Assembly: GCA_013203785.1 (NCBI GenBank)
Contig: JABMPJ010000166.1
Coordinates: 1-57,164, forward strand
From: Lentisphaerota bacterium
Lineage (GTDB): Bacteria > Verrucomicrobiota > Kiritimatiellia > UBA8416 > JABMPJ01
Direction: 5' to 3'
Length of the DNA: 57,164 nt
Below, one piece after another: positions 18,870-57,164 of this stretch. A program made the translations under genes and the position numbers. Below the pieces are notes generated by a model. That model saw only the letters and a program-made list of their open reading frames with translations, did not search any database and was not told where the DNA came from. How positions within the stretch are numbered: the stretch's first letter is position 1; the number at the start of each line of letters is the position of its first letter.

Positions 18870-19573
18870 GTACAAATACCGTTCGACACTTCATGCCACT
18901 GGATCTGGCCGCCGTCCAACTCATCTGTTACGACACCGCCTTGCGGGGCGCCACACTGAGGGGTGTATTCGACGACGTCCGGCTGGTGGCAGATGCGATT
19001 CTGCTCTATCACATCAAGGTCGAGCCCGATTCGTTCCTGGTCGCGGGGGCCGAAACTCGTGTGTCTGGCTACATCGCAGGCTGCGTGGACACGCGACGCT
19101 TCGACAGACTGTACAGGCGACGGGTCTTGCCCTCTCTGGTTCTACGTATCGCCACACAAGGTCACTGGGCGCACCGCATCTGCCGCCGCCTGCTCTACGA
19201 TAGCATGGCCTATGGTCGGGTCTTGCATGCGCAAAGGCAGCGCTTTCTGGAGGCCTATCCCGCCCACCTCCATATCAACGTCGCCCAGTCGGCCCGCGGC
19301 GCGGGGATGGGATCATCCCTCCTCGCAGCCTTCACCGCCCATCTCGCCACGCACGGCGTCTGTGGCGTTCATGCCGTAGTGCAATCGCCACACGGTGCCG
19401 CATTCTTTGCAGAGCACGGCTTCACCGTGCTCGCACACTACCAATCCCCCCCCCTGCTCCACCTGCCACCGGCCGATGTCAGGATCATGGGATTGACCTG
19501 CATGGACACTCACTCAAAAGGGAAGCCCGAGCTCTTGGATACGGCGCTGAATGGTGCGACGAGAGAGCTGTAG
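18866..19573 (+). CDS. GNAT family N-acetyltransferase
   Basis: 235 aa. The acetyl-CoA-binding motif A is visible as LHINVAQSARGAGMGSSLL (about 132-150), following the Q/R-x-x-G-x-G/A pattern, and a later VQSPHGAAFFAEHGFTVLAH segment is motif B. The substrate cannot be predicted. It starts inside the PIG-L stop, so a deacetylase and an acetyltransferase are co-translated, which suggests related amino-sugar substrates (inference). Its last 60 bases overlap, in convergent orientation, the 3' end of the NtrC-type regulator. Confidence 0.8.
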   Translation: MSTNTVRHFMPLDLAAVQLICYDTALRGATLRGVFDDVRLVADAILLYHIKVEPDSFLVAGAETRVSGYIAGCVDTRRFDRLYRRRVLPSLVLRIATQGHWAHRICRRLLYDSMAYGRVLHAQRQRFLEAYPAHLHINVAQSARGAGMGSSLLAAFTAHLATHGVCGVHAVVQSPHGAAFFAEHGFTVLAHYQSPPLLHLPPADVRIMGLTCMDTHSKGKPELLDTALNGATREL

Positions 19574-20884
19574 CCTCTCTGCGGCGAGCGTACGGTTGCC
19601 ATCGCAGCGTCGCAGTGTCTGCAGCAGAATTTCCTTTTCCAATTCTGCGAAGCTCATGTCGGGGGGGACGACCAGGCGATCGTCCTGGGCCACAGCGCCC
19701 TCCTTAAAATGCACATCCTCAGCTCTCAGAATGGCCCCCTTCGCCATCACCACAGACACCTCCACGATATTGCGAAGCTCTCGGACGTTGCCGGGCCAGT
19801 CATGCCCCTCAAGCGCTTCGTAATATCCCGGCTCCACGGTTGTGATTCGACGCCCCATATCGTGGCAGGTCGTGGCAAGGAAATGATCCGCGAGCGGACG
19901 AATATCACTGCGACGTCCACGCAGTGGAGGTAACTGGATGGTCATGACCTTCAAGCGATAGAGCAGGTCCTGCCGGAAATCGCCGGCCTCGACCAATTCC
20001 TCCAGGTCGATATTGGAAGCCGAGATCACCCTGACATCCACCCGAATCGATTCCTGTCCGCCCACGCGAAACATCTCCCGCTCCTCCAGCACTCGCAGGA
20101 GCTTTACCTGTACGGAAGGGGGGGCACTGCCGACCTCGTCGAGGAAAAGGGTGCCTCCATGCGCGCGCTCGAATGCTCCGCGATGCTGATTCATCGCGCC
20201 CGTAAAGGCGCCCTTCTCGTGGCCGAACAGTTCAGAATCCAGCAGGCTCTCGGTGAAGGCACCGCAGCTGACGGCCACGAAGGGTCCCTCCATGCGTTTG
20301 CCATCCACATGCAGAGCGCGCGCCACCAGCTCCTTGCCGGTGCCGGTTTCCCCCAGCACCAACACGGTCGTATCCACGCTCGCCAGCGACTCGATTTGTG
20401 AAAGTATGGGCTGCATCGCACCCGACCGCGCCACCATGGCACGCGCCGAGTAGCGATCCTTCAGGGCGGACTCCAGCCGGGCCACGCGCTGGCGCAACCG
20501 GTTCGTCTCCAGGGCGCGGCCCACACGCGATCGAAGATCGTTCAGGTCGAGCGGTTTGGGCAGGTAGTCATAGGCACCGATCTTGAGGGCCTCCACCGCG
20601 TTGCTGACCGTACCGAAGGCCGTCATCATCAGCACAGGGACCTGAGGGTCGATCCGCAGAATGCGAGTCAGCACTTCAATGCCGCTGATATCCGGCAGCA
20701 TCAGATCGCACAGCACCACATCACAGGCCTGCTGCTTGAAAGCCTCCACACCCTCCATGCCCGTGAGTGCGGCTACGGGGTCGCAGTCCATTCGTGCGAT
20801 CGCGTTGGCCACCGAACGGGAGCCATCCGGATCATCTTCGACGATCAGTATGCGTGCCTTCTCCATCTTCACCTTTCCATTCAT
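19514..20884 (-). CDS. NtrC-family sigma-54-dependent response regulator
   Basis: 456 aa with receiver, AAA+ and Fis-type helix-turn-helix domains. Phosphoacceptor D60 lies in LCDLMLPDISG. Walker A is GETGTGKE, and the sigma-54-contacting loop GAFTGA is intact (about 226-231), so it should activate sigma-54 promoters. The C-terminus (GNRTLAAERLQLSRRTIQRR) is the DNA-binding helix-turn-helix. It overlaps the stop of the sensor kinase upstream (ATGA), forming a two-component pair. Its 3' end overlaps the convergent GNAT gene. A possible target is the sigma-54-like site at 12214. Confidence 0.93.
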   Translation of the reverse strand: MNGKVKMEKARILIVEDDPDGSRSVANAIARMDCDPVAALTGMEGVEAFKQQACDVVLCDLMLPDISGIEVLTRILRIDPQVPVLMMTAFGTVSNAVEALKIGAYDYLPKPLDLNDLRSRVGRALETNRLRQRVARLESALKDRYSARAMVARSGAMQPILSQIESLASVDTTVLVLGETGTGKELVARALHVDGKRMEGPFVAVSCGAFTESLLDSELFGHEKGAFTGAMNQHRGAFERAHGGTLFLDEVGSAPPSVQVKLLRVLEEREMFRVGGQESIRVDVRVISASNIDLEELVEAGDFRQDLLYRLKVMTIQLPPLRGRRSDIRPLADHFLATTCHDMGRRITTVEPGYYEALEGHDWPGNVRELRNIVEVSVVMAKGAILRAEDVHFKEGAVAQDDRLVVPPDMSFAELEKEILLQTLRRCDGNRTLAAERLQLSRRTIQRRIQELGLPF

Positions 20885-22275
20885 GTGCGAGGGGCGTGCG
20901 ACGCGGTCACGCCCGCGAGCGGCAGGCGCATGCTGAAACAGGCACCACCGCCCTCGGCCTCCGTAACATCAATCGTACCTCCGCACTTCTCAATAGCCGT
21001 ACGAGCAAGAAATAAGCCAAGCCCCGTGCCGCCCGGGCGTGTGGTAACGAATTTCTCGAAAACATGATCGCGTTCTCCGGCCGGAATGCCGGGGCCACAA
21101 TCCGCCACCTCCAGGAGGGCCATCTCCTCTTCACGCCGTAGACTTACTACAATTCGCCCCCCCTGGGGCGAATGCTGCTCGGCATTCATTAGCACGTTCA
21201 GCAGGCCCCGGCGCAGAGAGGTGGCGTATGCGCTCACCTGCAGATGATCTTCCATCATACGCGCGTCGACAGTGACCTTCTGGCGAGCCAGGCGGGTCTC
21301 AATCATCTTGAGACAGTCCTTCACGCAGACCCCCAAGTCCATCGCCTGCTGCTCTTCCTCCTGCGGCGACGACAGGGAGAGAAACTGTTGCAGGACCTCT
21401 TCCATCCGTTCGGCCGCGTGCGTCGCACGCGTGGCCAGCTCCTTGATCGTCTCGCGCGATCCGGCCGCCTCGCTGTCCGCCTCTTCGCGCAACATCTGGA
21501 CATCCAGCTTGAGGGAGGAGAGTGGATTACGGAAGTCATGAACCACCCCGCCAGCCATCGACCCGGCGAACGCAAGGTGCTCCTCCTTCTGCCGCCGCTT
21601 CTCGTACGCCTCCTCGCGTCGCATCACCCACAGCACCAGTATAATGCAGAATCCGAATGCCACAGCCACCGTCACCACGGCCACTTCAAACATAGCCGTC
21701 GTAGCGGCGACCGGTCCGGCGGCTTCCCGATCGACGATTTCGCGGCGCAATGCTACCTCGACCGATTTGACACTGCCGTTGACGGATACCACATCCTTGG
21801 TGAAGGTCACCACCGGGATGTCGTGATCGCCCGTGCGCAACACCTTCAAGCGGAGTCTGACATTGCGCGGCAAGGGCGCAGAACTCCACTCGGGCCCCGA
21901 TCGCTCACGCGCGGGGAGTTGGACCGTTTCGCCACTCGGATGGGGCGCCACTTGCCTGTGAAAGACCGACACGCCGTTCTCGGTTACGGCCACGTATTGC
22001 AGTCCCTGCTCCACGGTATAGAAAGATTGCACCAGGGCCGAGAAATGCTCCCAGCTCGTGACCGTCCGGTTGGAGACGACCTCCGTCTGTCCCGCCAGAT
22101 AGGCATCCATGGCGACCCCGAGCTGCAATACATTGCGCGTGGCCGCCGTATGGACTTGGCGGTGATGCAAACGGAGCAGGACCCACAGGGAAAGACCGGC
22201 CGTCAGGGCGATTCCAAGAATCAGAACCGCCAGCAGACGCCGTAAATCCACCTCGTGTTGCTTTGAATCCTTCAT
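20881..22275 (-). CDS. Sensor histidine kinase (NtrB-like, membrane-bound)
   Basis: 464 aa from the ATG at 22275; a longer frame from 22323 is possible. Two membrane segments (about 12-34 and 185-220) bracket an extracytoplasmic sensor domain of unknown ligand. The phospho-acceptor His is in AGGVVHDFRNPLSSLKLDV. The ATPase domain has N, G1 and G2 boxes (LMNAEQHSP, DCGPGIPAGE and GGTGLGLFLAR). It is the partner of the sigma-54 activator that overlaps its stop. The upstream spacer shows no clear promoter. Confidence 0.92.
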   Translation of the reverse strand: MKDSKQHEVDLRRLLAVLILGIALTAGLSLWVLLRLHHRQVHTAATRNVLQLGVAMDAYLAGQTEVVSNRTVTSWEHFSALVQSFYTVEQGLQYVAVTENGVSVFHRQVAPHPSGETVQLPARERSGPEWSSAPLPRNVRLRLKVLRTGDHDIPVVTFTKDVVSVNGSVKSVEVALRREIVDREAAGPVAATTAMFEVAVVTVAVAFGFCIILVLWVMRREEAYEKRRQKEEHLAFAGSMAGGVVHDFRNPLSSLKLDVQMLREEADSEAAGSRETIKELATRATHAAERMEEVLQQFLSLSSPQEEEQQAMDLGVCVKDCLKMIETRLARQKVTVDARMMEDHLQVSAYATSLRRGLLNVLMNAEQHSPQGGRIVVSLRREEEMALLEVADCGPGIPAGERDHVFEKFVTTRPGGTGLGLFLARTAIEKCGGTIDVTEAEGGGACFSMRLPLAGVTASHAPRT

Positions 22276-22801
22276 AACCTGAACCTGACCATTCGCCGCC
22301 TGCAACCGGCCACTCTGACACACCTCACTGCGCAGTCAGTCACGCCTCCGCAGGTGGGACCCGGCCATTAGCCCCACTACATCGGGCTTTTCGTCAGCCT
22401 TTAGTGCATTGGCACATCTACTGCTATGAAACCAATAGCAAGGATCATACCGCAGACTACTATCATGTACCCCCACCATATGAAAGGAGGAACAATAGAC
22501 GACGAGACGGCTCGCCTCGGATCGCATTCCTCTTAAGAGATGCTGAGATCCCGAGGGCTCGATACTGGTGCGCCTGTCCAGGCCGCCATTCGGGCATGAG
22601 CCGTCTCTCTCCCTTCTTTGGCCGCACCGATGCACACGCATCCGTCAATACCTATTTGCTATTCTGGGGGCTGACCCCACGGGTGGAGCCGTCCTCTCCG
22701 AGCCTTCCGGGCGGCAGCATGGCGGAGAGATTGTTTCGGTGGCGGACGCCGCCGGCAGGGCCGGGCTGATCCAGACATGAAGCATCATGATGGCGTCTGT
22801 C
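22276..22801. other. Spacer between the 1286-aa gene and the sensor kinase, no gene seen
   Basis: Open frames here look like chance products. Two short perfect inverted repeats are present: GAGACGGCTC (22504-22513) with GAGCCGTCTC (22598-22607), and CTCTCCG (22694-22700) with CGGAGAG (22723-22729). Neither is followed by a T-run. The spacer should contain the kinase promoter and the end of the large operon to its right, but no consensus element stands out. Confidence 0.4.
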
Positions 22802-25800
22802 TCAGTACGAACGAGTTGATTGGGGGGCGGTTGCTCTATACCAGCGTCCCTGTCCGGGAGCGAGGGAGACGGAAACGGCAGCGTCGACCAGGCTGCTGAA
22901 GATGGGGTTGGTGCGAACCGTGGTCGCCAGGCTGGTGGCGCGGGGATTGTGCGCATAGAAATAGACGACTCCAGGCGCGCGAGAGCCCCACTCAATGACC
23001 AGATCGGGATCGTCGGCAGTGAGCAGGTTGCCCGCCGCGACGCGGAAAGGCTGATCGAGCGCCTCGACAACGGTGTGCAGGAGCGAACCACCGGAGGGAG
23101 CAACCCGCAGTACCCCATCCCGTTCGACAGCGCAGGTCCAGTGCGGGTTGACCCCGTCGAGCGTTAGCGGCAACGCATCGCGACGCTGGACCGAGGTGGC
23201 CACCGTGGCCGCAGCACCGTGGCGGCCGACCATGCGAATACGATAGCCGGTCTGCACGGTGGTGCCGGGCGTAAGACCGGTGACGGTCGCATTGGCAGTG
23301 TAGCGGGTGACCAGCGCGCGGAGCTGTTCGGGTGAGGTGATCGATCCGGGCCAGAGCAGAACCAGGAACGCCGTTCGATGAGTCTCGCCGGCAGCAAAGG
23401 CGCGGCCGGGCGTTGTGAGCTCGACATGCTCACGTCCATTCCAAACCCCCTTCAGGTTCGAAAACTCGGCTTGATAGGCCGTAGCGTCGAGCGGAATAAC
23501 TACGAGATTTCCGGCGTCGCTCGGCCAGAGCATGAGCGGGCTGCCAGGCGCAAGGGCATGGCGGTGCTGTTCGCCAGCCACAATGGACGCGAACGCCTCG
23601 GTCACGAGATTGTTCCCCACATCGGTACAGGTATAGCGCCACGCAGGTGCGAGGGGTGGCATCATGGCAAGCGCGAGCACACCGATGCTATCGAGGGTGC
23701 CAGCAGGAATATCCTGCTGCGCTGTTAGCTCTGTTTCTACCAACGTGGCGGTTGCACCATCCACGGCGGGTCGGTAGACGGTCAGGGCGGTTCGCGAACG
23801 GAAGTGGTTGCCGGGCGGGTTAAAGTCATAGGTGATGACATGATGATCGCCCGAAGCGGATCGAATCCGCAACTCGGACTCGACATGGTCCTCGGTATGT
23901 CCATCGCTGAAGCGAATGCGAGGGCAGGGCCTGAAGTATTTGCACGGCTGAATGATACCGGTCTCGATGATACGCGGCACCAGCTCGCGCGCGTCTTTGA
24001 GCATGCCCACCTGGCCAGCGGCCTGGCCAGTATGCCAATTGGAGTGCTGGAGGAAGATCTCGCGTTCGTCGTAGACAAAACGGGAAGGCACACGCGCCAA
24101 GGAGGCGATTGTGTTCTGGTTGTCGCCGCACATACTACAGTAGAAGCCCTGCTCTACGACGTGAAAACGACCGCTGTATGCCTCGCTGCCATCAGCGGCT
24201 TCGATATGCGTCATAAGATCGCCCTCCGTCGTGATGAGGAGCGGCTCAACGACAGTGAAGCGTCGCGTGTGTGGATACCAGCGCCTCACAACGGCGTCGT
24301 TGTGATAGAGGGTCACGCGCGTCAGGGGGACTGTGTGTGAGGCATCGAGATGGAGATAGATCCGGGTGTGGCCGCAAAACACCTGTCCGCCGCCACTTTC
24401 ACCGTTGGTGGTTTGGTCAGATGTAAAGGCGTAGCCCTCGAAGCGGGGCCCGTTGCTCACCATCGAGGCGTAGTGAAACGCTCCGATGCGCTCACGGCGC
24501 GTGGCGTGAACGAGCGTATGCCACCCCTTGGCGGCCGCCGTGATCGCAGCCGGCGAACGATAGTCACCTGAGACACGCGGGTACGGGCCATACCCGCCGG
24601 CCAGCAAGTCCCGATAGAGGGCACGGGCATCGCCGTGCGCTGCACCGTCACAATCGAATGTAAAGAGATCGAGGCCGCGCCAGAAACGCTGGAAGAAGGG
24701 CGAGATCGTGCTGTCGCGCGACTGCATGAGCGTGGGCACGGCATTCTTGCCACCGGAGAAGGCTCCGCCAAGAAACTTCCACAAGAGGGCGTAGGGATTC
24801 CCGAAATCTGACACGTCCGGCAGTCGCTCGATGGACTGAAAACTGTACGCGCTGACGTGCCCTCTCCCCCGCTGTTGATCAGGCGGTAGGGGGGTATCCT
24901 CATAGCCATCCTTGAAGCGGATACCGGGCAAGGCAGCAAAATTGGTGGATGAGGCCTCGCGGCAGTCGCGCACGAGGGCTTCGTAACGATCCGACGTGAG
25001 CGATGCAACGGGATCTGTAAAGACGAGAAAATCGAGCCCGGCCTGCCGCGCGGCTTCCACCATATTGCTCACAGTTGCGACGCCGCCGCCATGAAGGGAG
25101 CGAGCACCGATGAGTCCCCGGTAGATCGGCGTCGGCCGCAGCAGCAGATCGTTACCGGCGTCCGGCGGCTCGCAGCGCGCCATCAGTGTTTCAGCCGATT
25201 CGTCGTTCTGGCCGGGCGCAAGGAGCCACAGTTCGCCGAGGGCTGCAGTGGTGCCCTCACCGCCGCTGCCGAGAGAAAATGTGACTTCGATAGATCCGTT
25301 TGTGACCGCTTCGGCAGGTAGGGTGATCGACTCAAGACGAGGTCCCTGCTTCTGCTCAAAACGCGACGGGAGCCACTCATTCTCCAGCGACTTGTCTCCC
25401 CATGCAACACGCACGGCACGTCCAGCATCTCCGCTGTAGTCCCAGTGCACGAACATAACCCGATACGCCACCCCGGACGTGAGTCCATCGAATCGGTAAC
25501 GCAGGGAGTCCTTCGTTATGAGCCGTGCATTGGCGGCTGTAGCATGGAAACGGAACGCCCGCGACCAGCGGACAATGCGGCTAGGATCAGAGGCGAGGTA
25601 ACCGGCACCGACACCGGATCGGTAGGGTCGGTCGGAGACGGCACCGCAGTCGATATAGGCGCTCACGCTATAGCCGGGGGGAAGCCGGGTGGACAGCACG
25701 CTGCTCAACCACGCCATTTTATCGACCGCAATAGGCACGTTGCCCGCCACGAGCGTCGCGGCAGCGGCCGGCGGTGGGGTGACCGCACGTGCATAGCCGG

Positions 25801-26662
25801 CGGCTGACACATAGTCGAACAGGTTGCACATCAGCCGCAACCCGCCATGCTTCATGACCAGGCCGCTCCCGTGGGCGCGGTGGTAAGCGTCCCAGATAAA
25901 ATGGCGCGAAGCCGTGGTGAAGATGGCCAGGTGGCCTTTGCCCCAGTCTCGCACAGCAAGCAAGGGCGGCGCGTGGCTCCAGGTTCCGGACCGCAGCGCG
26001 GGATCGGTCTGGCCGAACGGAAAGGAGGCCGTGGTGGATTCGCCACGCACGAGTACGTCCCATCCGGGCGCGAGGCGCATGGTGTGCGTGCGGACATAGC
26101 TGTTGGCATAGTCGAGCGGCAGAAGCAACTCGTCGATCCCTTCGGTGACGGGATGTGACAGCAGGTTAGTGGTGCAGAGATAGCGATAGGCCAGGATCTG
26201 AACATCTTCGATCTGACGGGAAGGATCGAGCGGGATTTCGTTGAGTAGTTCAGCGCCGTACGGGGCGAGCCACGGGTTGAGCTGCTCTGTGAAATCGGCC
26301 ACCCCGTAATAGCTGGGGCCGGGGATCAGAATGAAACCACCGCCCGCGCGCACGTACCCATCAATCGCAGCAGCCAGTTCGTCGCTCACGGCGCGAGTGC
26401 CCTGGTGTAACTGGGCAATCATACCCACAACGATCGGATAGCGGTGAAGCGCTTCGGGAGCCACCTCCTCGTAGTAGTCCAGGTGCAACACATAGCCAGC
26501 TTCGCGGTAGGCGGCCAGGGCGGCCGGATCTATGGCGTCGAGGCCTTGCACGCGTGTATCGCGTGCGGCGAGGCAGAGAACGTGGATTGGTTCGGCCGCC
26601 AAAACCACGCCCAGAGAGAGCGCGAGGAACAAGCAGGCAAGGATGCTGTGTCGGGGCCTCAA
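22802..26662 (-). CDS. Large secreted protein: GATase-like, degenerate PHP-like and beta domains
   Basis: 1286 aa, last gene of the LacI-linked unit. A Sec signal peptide is visible (MRPRHSILACLFLALSLGVV, cleavage likely after VLAA). Residues about 25-290 look like a class I glutamine-amidotransferase/ThuA-like fold (YVRAGGGFILIPGPSYYG). Residues about 515-640 resemble a PHP fold (AARQAGLDFLVFTDP, then ALPGIRFKDG), but the usual HxH and TDH metal ligands appear as SLHGG and TDP, so it is probably not a normal phosphoesterase. Beta-rich regions follow. The middle to C-terminal part matches the upstream 930-aa protein (VTLYHNDAVVRRWYP against VTLYDGDRVFREFHP). The start overlaps that gene's stop (ATGA). 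No known family; glycan-related by context. Confidence 0.7.
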   Translation of the reverse strand: MRPRHSILACLFLALSLGVVLAAEPIHVLCLAARDTRVQGLDAIDPAALAAYREAGYVLHLDYYEEVAPEALHRYPIVVGMIAQLHQGTRAVSDELAAAIDGYVRAGGGFILIPGPSYYGVADFTEQLNPWLAPYGAELLNEIPLDPSRQIEDVQILAYRYLCTTNLLSHPVTEGIDELLLPLDYANSYVRTHTMRLAPGWDVLVRGESTTASFPFGQTDPALRSGTWSHAPPLLAVRDWGKGHLAIFTTASRHFIWDAYHRAHGSGLVMKHGGLRLMCNLFDYVSAAGYARAVTPPPAAAATLVAGNVPIAVDKMAWLSSVLSTRLPPGYSVSAYIDCGAVSDRPYRSGVGAGYLASDPSRIVRWSRAFRFHATAANARLITKDSLRYRFDGLTSGVAYRVMFVHWDYSGDAGRAVRVAWGDKSLENEWLPSRFEQKQGPRLESITLPAEAVTNGSIEVTFSLGSGGEGTTAALGELWLLAPGQNDESAETLMARCEPPDAGNDLLLRPTPIYRGLIGARSLHGGGVATVSNMVEAARQAGLDFLVFTDPVASLTSDRYEALVRDCREASSTNFAALPGIRFKDGYEDTPLPPDQQRGRGHVSAYSFQSIERLPDVSDFGNPYALLWKFLGGAFSGGKNAVPTLMQSRDSTISPFFQRFWRGLDLFTFDCDGAAHGDARALYRDLLAGGYGPYPRVSGDYRSPAAITAAAKGWHTLVHATRRERIGAFHYASMVSNGPRFEGYAFTSDQTTNGESGGGQVFCGHTRIYLHLDASHTVPLTRVTLYHNDAVVRRWYPHTRRFTVVEPLLITTEGDLMTHIEAADGSEAYSGRFHVVEQGFYCSMCGDNQNTIASLARVPSRFVYDEREIFLQHSNWHTGQAAGQVGMLKDARELVPRIIETGIIQPCKYFRPCPRIRFSDGHTEDHVESELRIRSASGDHHVITYDFNPPGNHFRSRTALTVYRPAVDGATATLVETELTAQQDIPAGTLDSIGVLALAMMPPLAPAWRYTCTDVGNNLVTEAFASIVAGEQHRHALAPGSPLMLWPSDAGNLVVIPLDATAYQAEFSNLKGVWNGREHVELTTPGRAFAAGETHRTAFLVLLWPGSITSPEQLRALVTRYTANATVTGLTPGTTVQTGYRIRMVGRHGAAATVATSVQRRDALPLTLDGVNPHWTCAVERDGVLRVAPSGGSLLHTVVEALDQPFRVAAGNLLTADDPDLVIEWGSRAPGVVYFYAHNPRATSLATTVRTNPIFSSLVDAAVSVSLAPGQGRWYRATAPQSTRSY

Positions 26663-29451
26663 GGCTCGTCCTCGATCACGGTGTGGAGGGTATACTCCAG
26701 GAGGAGGGTCTCACCGGCCCTCAGCTCACGCCGCAGCGGCACCAGTTCAAAACTGAGCGCAAAAGCATCTTCGCCGCGCACCCACCCGCGCATGCACAGT
26801 GTGCCCGGAATGGAACGATTCTCCAGGAGAAAACAGCCCAGCGCCTCGCCGCGCGTCCCCGCAGCCGCGCCGGGAGGGATTTCCAATTCATAGCCCGTAA
26901 GAGGCTGTGCCAGGAAGCGCACCATGTCAGCGTTGTCCCACTCCTTTTTGCCAATCCGCAGCTGAAGGTCGTCGACGGGCTCCAAGAACGTATCGACGGG
27001 AACGCCAGCCCCTGGGGCCATCCCGATCCGCATGCCCGGGCGACGCACATGGAGGGAGTGACCCATACTGAATCCCTGTCCGGGCGCGAGCGTGATATCA
27101 GCGTGCAGATGGATGCGCATCGTCACCTCAACGCGGCACGGCCCACGTGGTTCCCAGACCGGAATCGTGTAGTCGGTTTTAGCCTCCCAGCGTGAGCTGG
27201 GTGTGATGGCCCGCGTGGGCTGAAAGGTGCGACTGCCGTTAGGCGTCTTCCAGTCCGTGCCGGGCTGTTCGAGCCATGAGCCGTCGCTGAAATCATGAAC
27301 CGTATGGCACGTGCTGGTACACCTGCCCAGGACACGGTGATGGTTGTTGAGGAAGTCGAATCCCTCGGACAGGCCGATGAACGGGCTCGGATGGAATGAT
27401 TTGAAGCTACAGACCAGAACCGAGACTTCCATGCCATCGGGCATGACATCGCTCCAGGGCAGCGTGGAAGCCATGCGGAGATAGTCCCCCCACCCGAAGC
27501 CGAGTGTCACGAAGCCAAAGGCCTCATAGAAGCGATCGCCAATCCCAATGCCGCCCCTGTCGGTCTCGCGCCAGAGATTGTGATAGTCGTTCATCTGGTC
27601 GGACCCGACATGCGCCCAGAAGGTACGGCAGCGGGAGTAGAGCGGTGCCGTCGCGACCAGCGTCTTGCCAGACCGGTCCTCGGCAACCAGGTGCAGGCGC
27701 ATATCCTTCTCCGCTTTGAAGCTCACGCTGGTCTCGAACCGCTCACTACCGGGATGAAACTCGCGAAAGACCCTGTCGCCATCATAGAGTGTAACCTGGT
27801 CGATGGGATGCTCACCATGCAAGGCGATCTCGACGGCGAGCTCGTCGCCTTCGTTCCATTCCATCCAGATCCCTTCCCAGTCGTCTAACATGCAGGCTCG
27901 GCCTTCCCAACGAAACGTGTCGAGGACAGGGCCCTGGGTGACGAAACTATCGCGACGATTGCCGCATATCGCATCAAGGGCAGCGGCCGGGCTTGATGCC
28001 AGCGTATAGGTTGACACGCGCTCTGCTCCTGGAAGCACGTCACGACAGATCGTGACGGGCGCGAGCGAGGAGCAAGAGGCGACCCGTTCTCGATAGAAAC
28101 TAAGCGCGGCCGGGTCCGCATCAATCTCTATCAGATTGTAGCCGCCGTGGCGCCAGGGTGGGATGCGATTGTGGGTGGGGCGGGCGTAGACCGACGAGTA
28201 GGAACTAAGTTTTACGAGGAGGTCTTCCAGCATGTTGGAGTTGGGATAGGCGTGCCGCATCTCCGGCAGCGCCTCCACATTGAAGACCACACAGCAATTC
28301 CCTTCGTCGTCGAGCATCTCAAGCCCGGCTTGGAGCGCCACGTGGTGTATGCCGGATGCCGCCCGACACTCGGCCTGTACCTGTTGCCACCGTTCGGGCG
28401 AGAGGGCATCGTAGTCGGACAGGACGACCGCGGCGGCATAGCCCGCGGCGGCCGCTGCGGCGGCCACGTCCATGACGGATACATCGGTAGGCGGGAGTCC
28501 GATCCAGACCTTGTGGGGGCGCAATGCGGCGCGTTCAACCGCCTCGGTAGGCGTCAGGTAGCGGTAAGAGAAGTCCTGCTCGCTGACAATGCGGCGCGGT
28601 GGCAACGCCATGGCTGTAGCACGATTGCCAATGGGCACGGGACCGGCCGCCCAGCGCAACATGCCAACCAGAAAGTCGAAGCCCTCCCCATCACCTTGGC
28701 GCAGGAGAAACTCCTCCCAGCGCGGCAGGCAGGCGTTCGCCAGCCAAATGGCTGACGACTCGGGAAAGGCGCATACACGACCGCGACCGAAGGTGCGGCA
28801 CGACGCCAGCACGGGCGCATCGATCGGCTCGTCCGTGCCGGCGGTATAGTTCCCGTCTGGAAAAGGTTCCGATCGGCATGTCTCACTGCCGCGCAGAAGC
28901 ACGGTCCAGTCGTCCGATGGCAAACACGTTAGCGACTGCGTGCCGTGCCCGCCATCCACCACCAGGAAGAGGGCGCCACTGCCCGGCGCAAAGGGAGCAT
29001 TCGGGCCGGCAAAGGCCTTGATCAGCCGACCTTCCGGCATATTGGGCAGCGCGGCGCAATGGTCCGGCCTGCTGTCGCTAAGCTGGTTGAACGCGAAGCG
29101 CATATCAAACCGCGCAGCGAGACGATTCAACGGTTCCACGGTCTTGCCGTAGCACTCGCAGAACATCAGGACCAGCCCCCCACCCCGCTCAACGAAGCGA
29201 ACCAGTTCAGGTTCGAACGATGCGAACAGGTCGCTATCGTCCTTGGGATGCCCCGGCAGCGGTGAGCGGAGCAGGACGACTACGGCAAATGCATCCAGGT
29301 CGCCCGGCTCCAGTTGCCCTGCGAAAGACTCAAACAGGAAGTACCCGCTCGCTGCGAGCTCCAGCTTCAACTGAGGCGACACGAGGTGAAGGAACTGGCC
29401 TTCACCGCTCTCGGACGCCAACAGCAGAACGGGAATAGATTCAGTTTCCAT
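26659..29451 (-). CDS. Large cytoplasmic paralogue: GATase-like, PHP-like and beta domains
   Basis: 930 aa with no signal peptide. The order of parts is the same as in the exported 1286-aa neighbour. An N-terminal GATase-like region contains RFVERGGGLVLMFCECYG. A PHP-like segment near 310-400 contains AAAGYAAAVVLSDYDALSP. A beta domain near 545-620 contains VTLYDGDRVFREFHP and ends with HVGSDQMNDYHNLW. The C-terminal third ends in SFELVPLRRELRAGETLLLE. I cannot assign a family or activity. It overlaps the GH38-like gene by 11 bases and the 1286-aa gene by 4, so the three are probably one transcript. The exported and cytosolic pair suggests handling of the same ligand on both sides of the membrane (inference). 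Confidence 0.68.
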   Translation of the reverse strand: METESIPVLLLASESGEGQFLHLVSPQLKLELAASGYFLFESFAGQLEPGDLDAFAVVVLLRSPLPGHPKDDSDLFASFEPELVRFVERGGGLVLMFCECYGKTVEPLNRLAARFDMRFAFNQLSDSRPDHCAALPNMPEGRLIKAFAGPNAPFAPGSGALFLVVDGGHGTQSLTCLPSDDWTVLLRGSETCRSEPFPDGNYTAGTDEPIDAPVLASCRTFGRGRVCAFPESSAIWLANACLPRWEEFLLRQGDGEGFDFLVGMLRWAAGPVPIGNRATAMALPPRRIVSEQDFSYRYLTPTEAVERAALRPHKVWIGLPPTDVSVMDVAAAAAAAGYAAAVVLSDYDALSPERWQQVQAECRAASGIHHVALQAGLEMLDDEGNCCVVFNVEALPEMRHAYPNSNMLEDLLVKLSSYSSVYARPTHNRIPPWRHGGYNLIEIDADPAALSFYRERVASCSSLAPVTICRDVLPGAERVSTYTLASSPAAALDAICGNRRDSFVTQGPVLDTFRWEGRACMLDDWEGIWMEWNEGDELAVEIALHGEHPIDQVTLYDGDRVFREFHPGSERFETSVSFKAEKDMRLHLVAEDRSGKTLVATAPLYSRCRTFWAHVGSDQMNDYHNLWRETDRGGIGIGDRFYEAFGFVTLGFGWGDYLRMASTLPWSDVMPDGMEVSVLVCSFKSFHPSPFIGLSEGFDFLNNHHRVLGRCTSTCHTVHDFSDGSWLEQPGTDWKTPNGSRTFQPTRAITPSSRWEAKTDYTIPVWEPRGPCRVEVTMRIHLHADITLAPGQGFSMGHSLHVRRPGMRIGMAPGAGVPVDTFLEPVDDLQLRIGKKEWDNADMVRFLAQPLTGYELEIPPGAAAGTRGEALGCFLLENRSIPGTLCMRGWVRGEDAFALSFELVPLRRELRAGETLLLEYTLHTVIEDEP

Positions 29452-30775
29452 GGATCAGCACTCTCTTAATCCCGTGAGGGGCTAGGTGGATTGTCTGGCC
29501 ATCTGGCGCGTTCCAGTCAGTCGCCAGACCGTCGGCCTCAAACAGAAGCACGCGCGTGCCCTTGTCGCCTTCGGGGCGCACCGCAGCGGCAACAACAGTT
29601 GGCGGCAAACCGATGAGGGCGGGACAGGCCTGTGTGGGCTCCGAAGCGGGCAGGTTGAACGCCATGCCGCAGCGATGCAGATCCGAACAGGCCCGCCCCT
29701 CGGCGTCAAGGTCGACCCGGAACGTGAAGACATGGTAGCCGTTGTCGTACATGTCATCGGTTGACGTGACTGGAAACCAGGGCGCCCACCGTTTGACAGG
29801 GCTTCGCAGGAGCATGGTTTCGAGCTGACCCTCGCGGATGGCATGTCCCGGCGTGCCGCGATTGAAGAGGGCCATGTCACCGGCACGCACCCAGTTAAGC
29901 GCAGGGAACGCTGCGCCGGTGATGGTGTTGGCGGTCGGGGTATAGGCAGAATGTGTCGCCGATCCGCACAGCGTCTCGGTCGTGAAGGCCTCAACCCGGT
30001 CGCCCGCGGCCGCCCAGGTCACGGACACCTCCGTCGTGCACCCGATCCACCAGAGCTCAAGTTGAACATCGACCGCCGAGCTGTCGGCCGCCACGTGGAG
30101 CGCCTTGCGGACCTGCAATAATGCAAAGCCGGGCCACTGTGTATGGGCTGTGTCGAAAGCGGCATGGGTGACCACGCGCAGGTCATCCACGACATCCTGC
30201 TCTTCGCCCATCACCGTAAACAGGACGTGCGCAGCGGGACTGTCGGCCACTACCAGCAACGCCTTCAGCACGTTCGCGCGGCGTTGCGCGGGCGACAGCA
30301 CCCACGACGCGTCCGGGTTGTTGGGATGGCAGCCCCATCCCCAGTCGCTGTGACCGGCGGCGGGTGCAACACAGCGGATGCCGGTGCCATCCCAGGCCGT
30401 CCAGTAGAAATCGCCGACCGTCACGCGATAGCCCAGCTCAGACTCGAACCAGTCCAGGCCCGAAGCCATGTTTTCGACCACCGCGCCGGGCGAGCACATG
30501 TTCAGATCGCAGATCGTCTCACTACCGCCCGTGATCTCCAGTCGGCCTTCGGCCAGTAGTCGTGCCATCGGCTCGTGCCAACGCGGTTCCGTCGTGAGAA
30601 ACTCACAAATCGGCACGGCCTGGCCGAATGTGAACGTCGCCTCCGGATGGGCGCTCAACAGGGTTAGGGCCTGCGTGTAGAGCTCGGTACGCCGCTGCCG
30701 ATACCACGCCACCTCGCGCCGCCAGACAATATCAAGGTGCTGGTGAGGCACAACATGGACGGTGAGTGGGGGCAT
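29441..30775 (-). CDS. Compact GH38-like (alpha-mannosidase-type) protein
   Basis: 444 aa from Met at 30775, chosen because GGAAAGG lies 9 bases upstream; an ATG at 30793 is in frame. The N-terminus has the GH38 zinc motif VHVVPHQHLDIVW, then TFTFGQAVPICEF, LAEGRLEITGGSETICDLN and GYRVTVGDFYWTAWDGTG, which follow the GH38 order. The C-terminal ALNWVRAGDMALFNRGTPG and LETMLLRSP match the GH38 C-terminal beta domain. GH38 enzymes are normally 800-1000 aa; here most of the second half of the catalytic barrel appears to be missing. It may be a shortened enzyme or a non-catalytic binding protein. It is upstream of the 930-aa gene in the same unit. Confidence 0.65.
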   Translation of the reverse strand: MPPLTVHVVPHQHLDIVWRREVAWYRQRRTELYTQALTLLSAHPEATFTFGQAVPICEFLTTEPRWHEPMARLLAEGRLEITGGSETICDLNMCSPGAVVENMASGLDWFESELGYRVTVGDFYWTAWDGTGIRCVAPAAGHSDWGWGCHPNNPDASWVLSPAQRRANVLKALLVVADSPAAHVLFTVMGEEQDVVDDLRVVTHAAFDTAHTQWPGFALLQVRKALHVAADSSAVDVQLELWWIGCTTEVSVTWAAAGDRVEAFTTETLCGSATHSAYTPTANTITGAAFPALNWVRAGDMALFNRGTPGHAIREGQLETMLLRSPVKRWAPWFPVTSTDDMYDNGYHVFTFRVDLDAEGRACSDLHRCGMAFNLPASEPTQACPALIGLPPTVVAAAVRPEGDKGTRVLLFEADGLATDWNAPDGQTIHLAPHGIKRVLIHGN

Positions 30776-30823
30776 GCAGCCGAACCTTTCCATATCTTCC
30801 GGTGCTCGGTGGGCCGACGTAAT

Positions 30824-31981
30824 CTACTGGATCAATACAATCGTGCCTGTCGGTGGAAACTCGAAGTTGGTGAGCTTCACGTCGCCGCTACCCACGTCAT
30901 AGACCACCTCGACCCCAAGTAAGGGGGCTACAACGTTCGTACTCGTGAACGTCCCAGAGAGGCCAGCCGCATTGATGATGGTCACCGTATCTGCAAGGTC
31001 CCCATAGTCAGTCCCGTCAAACGCGACCGTGAGGGAGCCATTCACGGTAGCAGCACCGGATACCGTGATCGGCGACACGCCGCTGGCATTGAGCTCAACC
31101 TTCAGGGCCGACAGCGAATTCTGGGAATACTGCCCTCCCACCGTGATCGTAGGCGCCGTGCCTTTCACTTCAAAAGTGCCGGTTGCGGTAGCCTCTTCAC
31201 CGACCACCAACCAGCCATCGATATCAAGCGTGCCGTCTTCAATGCGATAACAGCCCGTGCTTCCATTACGGCGCCCCACCATGACGTAGCTCTTGACCGC
31301 GACCGTTCCGTTGCTCTGGATGAACGTGCCCGTCCCATACTCGCCGCAGAAGATGTAGTTCTCCGTGTTGGTCAGCGCCACAACAGCACTTCCGCTCATC
31401 GTGTACGAACCCGTAGAGCCCGCATCAACACCAAGGTAGAGGTACTTGTTGCTGGTCATGGCTTCAAGCCGACCCCCGGTCTGGACCACCTCCCCCGTAC
31501 TCCCATTCAGATGACCCACACGGATATGACCGTTGTTGACGGCAAAGCTGCCGCCTTGGAGGTAGTAACCGCCGAACCCGCCGGACTGTTCTCCCAAGAC
31601 GACGTCGGCACCAGCGGTGTTGGTGCCCGCCAACTGCGTGAAGGTGCCGGTACCGCCACGACCGAGCGTCTGGTTCTGGCTGATGGCAAGTGATCCCGAC
31701 TCCATCCGTACATGACCCGAGTCGCCGCCACCAAACGCCAGAGTGAGAGACTGGGCCGACTGACCATCCTGTGTGATGCGCGCCGTGCCGCCATTGAATA
31801 GCTTTGCGTCGTCACTGTTGACGCTCGCAGGAACACCGTCTGGATCCCAGTTTGTTCCGGTCTCCCAGTCGTTCGTCCCCGTCAGTTCCCAATTCTTATT
31901 GCCGCCGATAGCGAACAACACCGTCGCCAGCATTGCAGTAACGATGCAAAACAGCATGCGAAACCCCTTCGTCTCACTCAT
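30824..31981 (-). CDS. Secreted beta-helix (autotransporter-associated repeat) protein
   Basis: 385 aa. A strong ribosome site (GGGAGGTG) sits 5 bases before the ATG. Residues 9-26 (MLFCIVTAMLATVLFAIG) form the signal peptide core, followed by NWELTGTNDWETGTNW, a common opening of such proteins. The body consists of about ten Gly/Ser/Thr-rich repeats (GTFTQLAGTNTAG, GEVVQTGGRLEAM, GSYTMSGSAVVAL, GTFIQSNGTVAV) predicted to form a right-handed beta-helix. No PEP-CTERM or outer-membrane barrel is seen at the C-terminus. It is the first gene of the LacI-linked unit, 49 bases before the GH38-like gene. Likely a surface or periplasmic glycan-binding or adhesive protein (inference). Confidence 0.75.
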   Translation of the reverse strand: MSETKGFRMLFCIVTAMLATVLFAIGGNKNWELTGTNDWETGTNWDPDGVPASVNSDDAKLFNGGTARITQDGQSAQSLTLAFGGGDSGHVRMESGSLAISQNQTLGRGGTGTFTQLAGTNTAGADVVLGEQSGGFGGYYLQGGSFAVNNGHIRVGHLNGSTGEVVQTGGRLEAMTSNKYLYLGVDAGSTGSYTMSGSAVVALTNTENYIFCGEYGTGTFIQSNGTVAVKSYVMVGRRNGSTGCYRIEDGTLDIDGWLVVGEEATATGTFEVKGTAPTITVGGQYSQNSLSALKVELNASGVSPITVSGAATVNGSLTVAFDGTDYGDLADTVTIINAAGLSGTFTSTNVVAPLLGVEVVYDVGSGDVKLTNFEFPPTGTIVLIQ

Positions 31982-32090
31982 TGCACACCTCCCAGCTTAG
32001 CCATACTCACCCCACTGTCCGCAGGTTCGGCCATTATTCTACCATACCTACCACCACTTGAAAAGAGCCTCTCACGATAACTATTCTCTT

Positions 32091-32106
32091 GCTTATACGT
32101 ATAAGC
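32091..32106. promoter_or_regulatory. Perfect 16-bp palindrome, candidate LacI-family operator
   Basis: GCTTATACGTATAAGC is fully self-complementary with a central CpG, the usual form of LacI-family operators. It lies between the divergent beta-helix gene (start 31981) and the LacI-type regulator (start 32175, or 32127). TTGCTT (32089-32094) and TAGGAT (32112-32117) with 17-bp spacing may form a promoter for the regulator that overlaps the site, which would give autoregulation. Confidence 0.65.
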
Positions 32107-32174
32107 TACATTAGGATCGGGTCGAAATGCAAGCAGAAAGTTGCGAGCCCTTTCGGGCAGACCCAGAGGTTCCT

Positions 32175-33173
32175 ATGGTCGGCAGAAAAACAGGACCGTC
32201 AATGGCGGATGTGGCAGCGCAGACAGGCGTGTCGCAAGCAGCGGTATCGTATGTCGTCAACGGCATCGCCGCTGAGAAACGCATTCCGGAAGCAACTCAG
32301 CAGCGTATCGAGGCGGCCTGTCACGAGCTGGGGTACCGGCGCGACTACCTGGCCACGGCCATGGCAACCCGGCAGACGCGGGTGATCGGGATGCTTTTCG
32401 CCAACGCCCTGGGTGAGTTCATGAACGGCATCATCAAGGGTGCCCAGGACTATCTGCGGGAACATGACCGACATGTGGTGCTGTGCACCTGTGATGACGA
32501 CCCAGCAGTGGAGGCCGCAGACCTGGAAATGCTTGATCACCGCCATGCCGACGGGATTATCTGTTTCCCTGTGCCCCCCCCCCACTCTACGGATTACTGG
32601 AAACGCGCGTTGGACGGCGAACGCCCAACGGTATTCGTGGACGTGCTGCCGCTCGGGATAGACGGCGACTGCGTCCGGATCGATGACGCCGCTTGCGGCA
32701 AGGGGGCCGCGGAGCACCTGCATCGCGCCGGGATAGAACAAACCGTTCTGCTGCAGATGCCGGGATGGAGTGCGGCATCGATCGAGATGCGACAGGCAGG
32801 ATTTCTGACCGGACTGCGCCAGGCGGGCCTGCCCGCCGCACGTGTGGTGGACGTCGGTGACCGACAAGCCATACACGCCCTGCTTCAATCACAAGAGAAG
32901 CTGGGCATTTTCGCCCCCGTCAGCGGATGGCTGACCCATATGCTGCGACCGTTCATCCGCTCCGTTGGACCTATTGGGGCGGGTGTGACATTTGCCAGTA
33001 TCGGTCGCTGCCCCGAAGCCGACTTCGTGGTCAACTCCTGGTGGGTGGCTCAGCAACCCGAAAAAGAGATGGGGCTCATTGCTGCACAGCAACTGCTTCA
33101 TCGCCTGGAAGATAATCAGCCCGCGCCCCCCACACTCGTCTTGCCCGTAGACTGGCACCACAATAGACCGTAG
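32175..33173 (+). CDS. LacI-family transcriptional regulator
   Basis: 332 aa from Met at 32175 (AGAGG 5 bases upstream); an ATG at 32127 would add 16 residues not expected in the family. The helix-turn-helix is MADVAAQTGVSQAAVSYVV with the hinge helix near 50-60. The periplasmic-binding-protein-like ligand domain begins at TRVIGMLFANALGEF. These regulators bind sugars and usually control adjacent uptake or degradation genes. It is divergent from the beta-helix/GH38-like unit, with a perfect palindromic operator candidate between them, so that unit is its likely target. Confidence 0.9.
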   Translation: MVGRKTGPSMADVAAQTGVSQAAVSYVVNGIAAEKRIPEATQQRIEAACHELGYRRDYLATAMATRQTRVIGMLFANALGEFMNGIIKGAQDYLREHDRHVVLCTCDDDPAVEAADLEMLDHRHADGIICFPVPPPHSTDYWKRALDGERPTVFVDVLPLGIDGDCVRIDDAACGKGAAEHLHRAGIEQTVLLQMPGWSAASIEMRQAGFLTGLRQAGLPAARVVDVGDRQAIHALLQSQEKLGIFAPVSGWLTHMLRPFIRSVGPIGAGVTFASIGRCPEADFVVNSWWVAQQPEKEMGLIAAQQLLHRLEDNQPAPPTLVLPVDWHHNRP

Positions 33174-33627: not shown

Positions 33628-34425
33628 CTAGATGAAGACCACCGGATTCCAATCATCATTGTCGAGCACATCACCTTCCTTGAGACTCTCGAAATAGTCC
33701 TCCGCCAGGATATTCTGCTGCCCGTTAAACGTGCTGCCGACTGGCATGTAGGCGCAGGTCATCGCGATACGTCTGCCACGGGTCATGCTGGCACCCGCAC
33801 CATGCGCGGTCAGCCCATTGTGGAAGCTGCAATCGCCGGGGGCCATGGGAACACCAACGGAGTCAGCCATCATCATCTCCGGGTAGATCTTGAACAGCGC
33901 CTTCATATTGAACTCGATGCCCGAATTGTCGAAGCGCGCCAACTTATGCGACTCGGGCACAGACCACATGCAGCCGTTCTGAAACGTGGCGGGCTCCAAG
34001 GCAATCCATATCGAAATGGCATGACGGGAAGAGAATGACCAAAACGGGTTGTCGAGATGCCAACCGGTTGGGTTGTCGTAGGCTTCCTTTATTAAGGCCT
34101 GATCGTGCCAGACGCGAAATCCTTCGACGCCCTCCAGTGCGCACATCATGGCTCCAATCCTGGAATTTAACATGTAGCGCTTAATCGTGTCGTTGATCCG
34201 CCACAGGTTCAGGCGCTGCGTAAACACTTGGTCGTAGAATTCGTCCTCGCCTGCCACCATGTTCCGGCCACCGCCCGCCACTTTGCGTTTTCCCATGCTG
34301 CCAACAGCCTCAAGTACGGCCACCTTCAGCTCGGACACTTCATCGGCAGAAAGTAACCCGCGATGCGCGATAAAACCGTCGCGCTGGTAGTTATCAGTCT
34401 GTTCCTGGTTAAGCTCTGTATTCAT
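33628..34425 (-). CDS. Phytanoyl-CoA dioxygenase (PhyH) family protein
   Basis: 265 aa from Met at 34425 (GGAGGG upstream); the frame continues to 34458 but that part overlaps an operator-like repeat. The Fe(II)/2-oxoglutarate site is visible as HLD in GWHLDNPFWSF and the distal His in DCSFHNGLTAHGAG, followed by RGRRIAMTCAYMP with the 2-oxoglutarate-binding Arg. Members hydroxylate diverse small molecules; the substrate is not predictable. It is divergent from an AraC-type regulator with a long inverted repeat between them, so it is probably that regulator's target. Confidence 0.88.
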   Translation of the reverse strand: MNTELNQEQTDNYQRDGFIAHRGLLSADEVSELKVAVLEAVGSMGKRKVAGGGRNMVAGEDEFYDQVFTQRLNLWRINDTIKRYMLNSRIGAMMCALEGVEGFRVWHDQALIKEAYDNPTGWHLDNPFWSFSSRHAISIWIALEPATFQNGCMWSVPESHKLARFDNSGIEFNMKALFKIYPEMMMADSVGVPMAPGDCSFHNGLTAHGAGASMTRGRRIAMTCAYMPVGSTFNGQQNILAEDYFESLKEGDVLDNDDWNPVVFI

Positions 34426-34460
34426 GAATGTGTGCCCTCCCCCCCTTTTTCTGATCACTG

Positions 34461-34507
34461 GAGCAATATAGTTGACCTAAATATCATTAACTATAACTAT
34501 ATTGCTC
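34461..34507. promoter_or_regulatory. 13-bp perfect inverted repeat between PhyH and AraC genes
   Basis: GAGCAATATAGTT (34461-34473) and AACTATATTGCTC (34495-34507) are exact inverted copies separated by 21 AT-rich bases. The centres of the arms are 34 bp apart, about three helical turns, so two regulator subunits could bind on one face. It lies upstream of both divergent genes and is a strong candidate binding site for the AraC-type protein encoded at 34557. Confidence 0.6.
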
Positions 34508-34556
34508 TATTGATGGTAAGATCTTGATTCAAGAGGCATCCTGAACCAGACAGCTC

Positions 34557-35486
34557 ATGGCAAAGACTTCACACTCCAGCGGCGGCCAGTCCACAGACCA
34601 TCCGTTGGCACTCTACGATGCGGAAACCAGCTCTCAGGGCCTCAAGCGATTTGGCGTCGGCATTCGATATTGTGAGGGCTACGTCAACCTCACACCCAGT
34701 CTCCATGCCATCAGTACGGTCCTGATTTCGTTCATCGTCCGTGGCCGAGGATCTCATGTGATGGGTGATACGGTATACGAGGAATCCGGCGGATCATTGG
34801 GGATTACTTACTATGATGAGGTTCATGCGATTGCCACGGAACCGGAGGGGATGGATATATATAATATCTTTGTCGACCCCGAACGGTTTCCGCTCCCACT
34901 ACTGCCGCCGCCTTTCCGTGATGTGTTGCATGTCATTCTGCCACAACATCGCGCTTTCAGGACTTTGCGGAATCGCGCCGTCCACCTCGACATCAGGGAT
35001 CCGCAACCCCTCGCGGCCGTGGCGAAACGCATGTGCCGAGAAATTGAGGACCCGCGTGACGGTGCGGCCGCGATCGTCGCCGCCTGCCTGCGCATTTTTC
35101 TCATTGAATGCTGTCGCGCCGCTATCGCCAATGGGTTCCATCCGGCCTTACCCACAGCGCGGGCGCACCCGGTCTGGATTGATCGCCTCTGTAGACATAT
35201 CGACCACCAGTTTGCCGAGCCACTCTCACTTGATGAGTTTCAGAAGTTGACCGGACTAAGCGCCGGGCACCTCTGCCGTACCTTCAAGCGCCACACCGGA
35301 CAGAGAGTATTCGACTACGTGATTGACCGACGCCTTCAGGCCGCCATGCCGCGATTACGCGGCACGGATGCCAAGATCAGAACCATTGCGCTCGAATGTG
35401 GATTCAACGACGCATCGTACTTCAGCCGCCGGTTTCAAGAGCGTCTGGGCCTATCGCCGAGCGACTACCGCCGAGGGATGGAGTGA
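34557..35486 (+). CDS. AraC-family transcriptional regulator
   Basis: 309 aa. The N-terminal half is a cupin-like ligand domain (LISFIVRGRGSHVMGDT). The C-terminal 100 residues contain two helix-turn-helix motifs: DEFQKLTGLSAGHLCRTFKR in the first, and IRTIALECGFNDASYFSRRF in the second, the AraC signature. These proteins sense sugars or other small metabolites and activate nearby genes. The divergent dioxygenase is the likely target, and the inverted repeat 50-96 bases upstream the likely site. No clear ribosome site precedes the ATG. Confidence 0.92.
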   Translation: MAKTSHSSGGQSTDHPLALYDAETSSQGLKRFGVGIRYCEGYVNLTPSLHAISTVLISFIVRGRGSHVMGDTVYEESGGSLGITYYDEVHAIATEPEGMDIYNIFVDPERFPLPLLPPPFRDVLHVILPQHRAFRTLRNRAVHLDIRDPQPLAAVAKRMCREIEDPRDGAAAIVAACLRIFLIECCRAAIANGFHPALPTARAHPVWIDRLCRHIDHQFAEPLSLDEFQKLTGLSAGHLCRTFKRHTGQRVFDYVIDRRLQAAMPRLRGTDAKIRTIALECGFNDASYFSRRFQERLGLSPSDYRRGME

Positions 35487-35601
35487 GTGGCACGGCCAAT
35501 CGAAACGCGACCTATTCCGCAAATGCAGTATTACTGTCTGTGTGACGCACGTTGGGCGACGGGCCTAGCAGGAGTGAGTTGATGCGTGATCCGTTCCCAC
35601 G

Positions 35602-35820
35602 CTAAGCAAACATAGCAATATATAGCCGCTCAACCTGCTCCCGTGCCCACGGCGTTTTTCTTAAGAATTTCAGACTGGATTTCATCGACGGGTTGATCTT
35701 GAAACAATTGATGTCCACTTCCAGCGCCAGGTTTTCCCATCCGTAGTGGTTCACCAGATTCGTTACCACCTGCTCCAGCGTCACGCCGTGCAGCGGGTTG
35801 TTCGGTTGTGCGTCGGTCAT
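35602..35820 (-). CDS. VF530-family (DUF2132) small DNA-binding-type protein
   Basis: 72 aa. [40 protein letters not shown] and [11 protein letters not shown] match the VF530/DUF2132 family almost throughout. A family member has a solved structure and is described as DNA-binding, but its role is unknown. Length is standard. It stands alone between the AraC gene and the broken esterase. Confidence 0.85.
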
Positions 35821-35879
35821 AATAGGAAGCGCCTGGATTGAAGTTATGGCACAGCCGGTGTTGCAGCATTAGGACTTAA

Positions 35880-56666: not shown

Positions 56667-56677
56667 GGAAAAAAATA

Positions 56678-56792
56678 CCTGGCGACGTGCTACTCTCCCA
56701 CGGGCTAGCCCCACAGTACCATCGCCGCTGAGGCCCTTCACTTCCGTGTTCGGAATGGGAACGGGTGTTTCCTCCTCGCTATGGTCACCAGG
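56678..56792 (-). rRNA. rrf: 5S ribosomal RNA
   Basis: About 115 nt. The ends CCTGGTGACC and CGTCGCCAGG pair as the terminal stem. Internal segments include AACACCCGTTCCCATTCCGA and ACACGGAAGTGAAG on the minus strand, the conserved loop regions of bacterial 5S rRNA. It follows the 23S gene in the usual order and is closed by a strong terminator. Ends are approximate to a few bases. Confidence 0.95.
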
Positions 56793-56846
56793 AATAAAAT
56801 CAGAATACATAGAGCAACGGGAAAGCAACAATGGCCGAACGACCGA

Positions 56847-56866
56847 TTATCCCGCAAGCGGGATAA
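56847..56866. other. Perfect 9-bp hairpin in the 23S-5S spacer
   Basis: TTATCCCGC (56847-56855) and GCGGGATAA (56858-56866) are exact inverted copies with a two-base loop. On the rRNA strand no T-run follows, so it is more likely a processing signal than a terminator. Confidence 0.45.
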
Positions 56867-56871
56867 AAAAT

Positions 56872-57164
<293 letters not shown>

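Follow-up and report, generated by a model that had tools for sequence, protein, structure and literature searches.

A closely packed unit of four genes, P0001 to P0004, and a divergent LacI-family regulator gene, P0005, lie in a 57,164-bp stretch of DNA from a Lentisphaerota bacterium (assembly GCA_013203785.1, contig JABMPJ010000166.1; the whole stretch is called the window here). The unit is likely one version of a recurring LacI-regulated operon core for sugar or glycoside use in bacteria of the Planctomycetes–Verrucomicrobia–Chlamydiae (PVC) group, a version in which catalysis by the member of glycoside hydrolase (GH) family 38 has been lost. The core consists of a cytosolic GH38 enzyme, the cytosolic protein P0002 and the exported protein P0001. 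A sugar-use operon core is proposed because the GH38-P0002-P0001 set recurs, a LacI gene is linked to it, and in one relative, G005, the beta-helix genes related to P0004 and the P0001/GH94 intergenic gap share an operator-like motif.

All four genes are on the minus strand. P0004 (30824–31981) encodes an exported beta-helix-type repeat protein of 385 aa with a weak T5SS/PEP-CTERM repeat match, P0003 (29441–30793) a 450-aa protein of the GH38 family whose active site has been lost through two in-frame deletions, and P0002 (26659–29451) a 930-aa cytosolic relative of P0001 that lacks the middle, carbohydrate-binding-module (CBM)-like region of the latter. P0001 (22802–26662) has a TTG start and encodes an exported protein of 1286 aa. 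P0005 (348 aa) is on the plus strand at 32127–33173. An initial annotation, made from the letters of the DNA, had described the packed genes, the divergent LacI gene and a perfect palindrome between them, and all are present; the overlaps of 11 bp (P0003/P0002) and 4 bp (P0002/P0001) are also as described. The first gap, given as 49 bp, is 30 bp when P0003 is read from its first ATG or 48 bp from its second.

Counterparts were sought in two ways. When ~85,000 species genomes were scanned with the P0001 pair, three other loci came up. In the phylum, 388 genomes drawn from a larger group, mostly metagenome-assembled genomes (MAGs), were searched, and the two best candidates per genome were scored; further counterparts probably exist. 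P0001 orthologs are found in genomes G005, G346, G347, G392 and G353, and P0002 orthologs, at 35–41% identity, in G005, G346 and G392. All four P0002 orthologs found sit with P0001 and a GH38 gene. In G392 the order is pseudopilin, GH38 (693 aa), P0002 (40%), P0001, metallophosphatase and a sodium:solute symporter family (SSF) transporter, and the core genes have 4-bp overlaps. In G346 (CAIPAT010000177.1), a pseudopilin, an exported protein, a second pseudopilin and a metallophosphatase precede GH38 (702 aa), which is followed by a third member of the P0001/P0002 family, P0002 (40%), P0001 (45%), a small protein and LacI. The GH38-P0002-P0001 order is thus unbroken in G392 and interrupted by a single gene in G346, and the earlier statement that the unit has no recognised counterpart does not stand.

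G005 (JAIOPI010000014.1) has a different layout. One run contains GH94, GH38 (886 aa), P0002 (35%), LacI, GH42-like, GH32-like, metallophosphatase and UroD genes; the opposite strand carries P0001 (41%), a major facilitator superfamily (MFS) transporter and then two large P0004 relatives, up to 50% identical to P0004. The G005 GH38 is of another subtype, aligning at 24–25% with the G346 enzyme and nearer in type to the intact GH38 on C166 of the window's genome (see below). Partial versions of the unit occur in G353 and in a MAG that carries the label Syntrophus. The G353 run contains GH38, a third member and P0001, and a rhamnosidase-type gene is also present; at locus L061, P0001 precedes a GH38 gene that is cut off after its start by the end of the contig.

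The relatives bear on what kind of locus this is. The initial annotation reported no transporter, sulfatase or complete glycosidase, which holds for the unit and for the flanking genes scanned, most of them housekeeping. No SusC/SusD pair was found among the scanned window genes, so that the locus is not a SusC/SusD-type polysaccharide utilisation locus. The further step, to a locus not devoted to sugar use, is not supported by the relatives, which share the core together with an intact GH38 and have GH94-, GH42- and GH32-type genes and an MFS transporter (G005) or an SSF transporter and a metallophosphatase (G392). The window copy thus resembles LacI-regulated carbohydrate-utilisation clusters in its divergent LacI gene, palindromic site and exported binding proteins, and its relatives do so in their GH94, GH42, GH32 and GH38 genes and sugar transporters. 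Unlike such clusters, it is centred on an uncharacterised family and lacks both a transporter and a complete glycoside hydrolase.

P0005 has a LacI helix-turn-helix (HTH) domain (PF00356) and a periplasmic-binding-like sensor domain (PF00532), both above cutoff, and belongs to the LacI family. Its best match in G005 is the unit's LacI (1.1e-33, next 2.5e-5), and its best match in G346, among 19, is the LacI beside the unit (7.9e-24, next 1.9e-13). Since both best matches adjoin the unit, the LacI gene travels with it. The divergent intergenic region holds a candidate LacI operator at 32091–32106, the perfect 16-bp palindrome GCTTATACGTATAAGC, which has the central CG that is usual in LacI operators. 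The window has no other perfect palindrome of 16 bp or longer, and this one occurs once in the 4.0-Mb assembly even with 2 mismatches allowed; we estimate that ~0.002 perfect 16-bp palindromes would be expected in the 145-bp intergenic gap. This palindrome is probably the LacI operator. In G005, three ATAACTAGTTAT-type sites are found where 0.02 are expected (L063:9821-9836, 20181-20196 and 22345-22360), upstream of the two beta-helix genes and within the divergent P0001/GH94 gap. With these sites, the GH38/P0002 operon, P0001 and the beta-helix genes of G005 likely belong to a single small LacI regulon. The initial annotation had proposed to test if the unit's genes, its LacI gene and its palindrome occur together in relatives. 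The first two do; the window palindrome has no match in the G346 locus (L062), and the G005 motif has none in the window, so conservation does not extend to the operator sequence.

The initial annotation called P0003 a shortened GH38-like protein, and the alignment with intact orthologs from G346, G392, G353 and G040 bears this out. Relative to all four, P0003 lacks exactly two in-frame blocks. The junction of deletion 1 is at 30415–30416 (minus strand), after residue 126, with 38–39 aa missing; that of deletion 2 is at 30178–30179 (minus strand), after residue 205, where the three closest orthologs have 218–221 aa more and the longer G040 protein 264 aa more. Residues 11–126 match the GH38 N-terminal domain (PF01074, E 1.6e-18), covering 116 of 270 profile positions. 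In SpGH38, a GH38 alpha-mannosidase of Streptococcus pyogenes, Asp125 is the nucleophile and a zinc ligand, and His351 is another zinc ligand (PMC2815779). By sequence motif, Asp125, Phe127 and His332 of the G346 enzyme correspond to SpGH38 Asp125, Phe127 and His351. Deletion 1 removes Asp125 and Phe127, and deletion 2 removes the middle helical domain together with His332 (G346 numbering). P0003 is thus like the GH38 alpha-mannosidases in its N-terminal domain and in retaining the His/Asp pair that provides the first two zinc ligands (G346 positions 13 and 15; SpGH38 His13 and Asp15), but differs from active enzymes in having neither the nucleophile Asp, the helical middle domain nor the zinc His of that domain. 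Judging from these sequence losses, glycoside hydrolysis by P0003 is not expected. The GH38s of G346, G353, G040 and G005 have a nucleophile motif (EDAFG or DDGFG) and an FHDA motif, and the EDAFG motif is present in the G392 GH38. The window's genome also has an intact GH38 gene of ~895 aa (G000:C166:8188-10875, L059), which could cover the lost activity.

What remains of P0003 is well kept. In the retained columns, P0003 and the G346 enzyme are 41.2% identical, versus 43.1% for G346–G392 and 39.6% for G346–G353. The codon-position GC pattern of P0003 is normal, and there are no stops and no frameshifts in any of the five genes. Because of this, P0003 is, as far as its sequence tells, a maintained or recent catalytic loss and not an old wreck. 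Both deletions may have stayed in frame partly because translation of P0002 begins within the 3′ end of the P0003 gene. The same observations bear on the proposal that the locus is decaying, in which case this lineage would be in the course of losing the operon, with P0003 an early pseudogene without a role and the other genes to follow. Two large deletions in a single gene would fit, as would the absence at the window locus of the transporter and other locus enzymes of the relatives. No P0002 match is found in four genomes of the same genus, which also fits, and the unit genes may be sporadic. However, decay would have to leave five genes free of stops and frameshifts, two deletions in frame, a normal coding GC pattern, and retained parts as conserved as those between intact orthologs; we regard it as unlikely.

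A far more improbable explanation is that the metagenome-derived assembly, which is in 229 contigs, shortened the GH38 gene by error and that the organism's own GH38 is intact. The loss of exactly two in-frame blocks is indeed unusual. Assemblers rarely drop two unique in-frame stretches, however, and a search for the deleted blocks across the assembly found no copy on any other contig.

The two large proteins are on different sides of the membrane. A hydrophobic export-type N-terminal segment is found in 6 of 6 P0001 orthologs, in both third members and in the other family members examined, and a signal peptide in 0 of 4 P0002 orthologs; in the window, upstream stop codons exclude a longer P0002 start. 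In a FastTree phylogeny the P0001, P0002 and third-member clades are well supported, and the P0002 clade is the sole cytosolic clade seen in the family. The proposed matching of an inside with an outside protein is borne out in each of the four genomes that were found to carry both. The pairing is thus conserved; the cytosolic members make up a derived clade and stand next to a cytosolic GH38.

P0001 and P0002 are distantly related to each other (BLASTP E 2e-7) and belong to a family of ~900–1400-aa proteins, members of which occur in at least 26 of the 388 genomes sampled from the phylum and are often encoded close to glycoside hydrolases. Pfam and NCBIfam give no confident assignment for P0001, P0002 or P0004, and a PDB sequence search with P0001 gave no match. 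A ThuA match in P0001 (19.2 bits) falls below the Pfam gathering score of 33.4, and P0004 reaches 15.2 bits with TIGR04393, whose cutoff is 23, a resemblance only to T5SS/PEP-CTERM repeat proteins. From N to C terminus, P0001 is composed of a GIFT/amidotransferase-like domain, a probable CBM-like beta-sandwich, a PHP-like region without metal ligands and a supersandwich-like C-terminal region. Confidence in the AlphaFold models is low except in the N-terminal domain and some of the beta-sandwich domains, and statements on these domains are at the fold level only. With Foldseek, the N-terminal ~280 aa of both models fall on the IFT52 GIFT fold (E 5e-7, probability 1.00, with modest models), and P0002 also on OST48. 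The likeness to GIFT/class I amidotransferase-like proteins (IFT52, OST48/Wbp1, GldG; ThuA) is thus one of fold; identity is ~12%, and the large multidomain context of P0001 and P0002 is not seen in those proteins. Sugar binding has been proposed for GIFT domains (PMC7226087). In its supersandwich-like region, P0001 resembles the YidC periplasmic domain, OpgD and galactose mutarotase.

The middle region of P0001 and P0002 fits the PHP pattern S(D/G)G..TV.EY..AA..AGL.F.VF. P0002 has a weak NCBIfam match of the CehA/McbA type (score 14.8, cutoff 80), and another family member a weak PHP match. In contrast to CehA/McbA-type PHP metallohydrolases, the HxH metal motif is absent in 23 aligned members, most having G-A-R or G-A-H instead. 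PHP metallohydrolase activity is therefore unlikely for P0001 and P0002. The literature on ThuA/PHP/CehA combinations and on GH38 pseudoenzymes yielded no description of the family.

These features allow two other views of the unit. One is that P0001 and P0002 represent an unrecognised carbohydrate-active or carbohydrate-binding family of GIFT, metal-less PHP-like and supersandwich domains, one branch of which split into exported and cytosolic forms acting on the same glycoside on both membrane sides, while in the window's lineage their GH38 partner was reduced to a protein that no longer catalyses but continues to act with them. We hold this to be possible but rather doubtful. The other is glycan sensing, which the initial annotation had suggested at the cell surface; the non-catalytic GH38 remnant and the matched inside and outside proteins would report glycans, with LacI as the output. 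The conserved pair fits sensing, as do a P0003 without catalytic residues yet conserved and in frame in its remainder, and a PHP-like domain without metal motif throughout the sampled family. Against it, the complete GH38s of the relatives keep the nucleophile motif and sit with GH94, GH42, GH32 or transporter genes, and no membrane-spanning signalling partner was found; sensing seems quite unlikely, slightly more so than decay.

In the favoured sugar-use operon, a LacI repressor would bind the palindrome, and a sugar from the target glycoside, on binding LacI, would release the divergent unit. Reading roles from domains and neighbours, the exported P0004 and P0001 may meet the glycoside outside the cytoplasm and bind or process it by way of the GIFT, CBM-like and supersandwich domains. 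A transporter, MFS or SSF in the relatives and presumably encoded elsewhere in the window's organism, would import the product. In the relatives, the intact cytosolic GH38 would then hydrolyse it, and P0002 would act on that compound as well. In the window's organism, hydrolysis by P0003 would have been lost with the in-frame deletion of the catalytic Asp and zinc His, and the kept reading frame would preserve the translational coupling of P0003 to P0002 and P0001. The lost step may have been taken over by another GH38, such as the intact one at G000:C166, or the pathway may have been altered.

Several observations weigh against such an operon. The divergent regulator of G392 joins a GntR HTH to a LacI-type sensor, and G353 has neither P0002 nor a LacI gene nearby. 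In the window, no transporter gene was found close to the unit. The AlphaFold models of the two large proteins are weak, with mean predicted local distance difference test (pLDDT) values of 51 and 55, and we know of no family member with a known activity. Weak sigma-70-like promoter matches are found for the four-gene unit (32036–32064, minus strand) and for the LacI gene (32058–32087, plus strand), the palindrome directly following the -10 of the latter, but such matches are no more numerous than in shuffles. Lastly, the operator-like sites of the window and G005 are similar in build and different in sequence. The LacI recognition helices differ (VSVFTVSRVLN vs. VSQAAVSYVVN), and a common operator sequence is therefore not to be expected.

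The GH38-P0002-P0001-LacI linkage places a family of no assigned function in a definite setting and points to a substrate class that can be tested. The window is in addition a natural GH38 deletion variant and could show if P0001 and P0002 work without GH38 catalysis. Three more large GIFT/PHP-like members are found in the window's genome, at G000:C67:319-4023 (L048), G000:C50:6836-10114 (L049) and on G000:C2 (L050:6766-10347); those on C67 and C50 adjoin GH42-, GH2- or SASA-like genes.

GC content is even across the window, and base composition gives no sign of recent foreign origin. Directly downstream of the unit, ~480 bp off and on the same strand, are genes for a histidine kinase and a sigma-54-type response regulator (19514–22323). 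Upstream of the LacI gene (33628–37544) are genes for a PhyH dioxygenase, an AraC regulator and a SASA-type carbohydrate esterase. The window ends (56677–57164) with a 5S rRNA gene and the 3′ end of a 23S rRNA gene.

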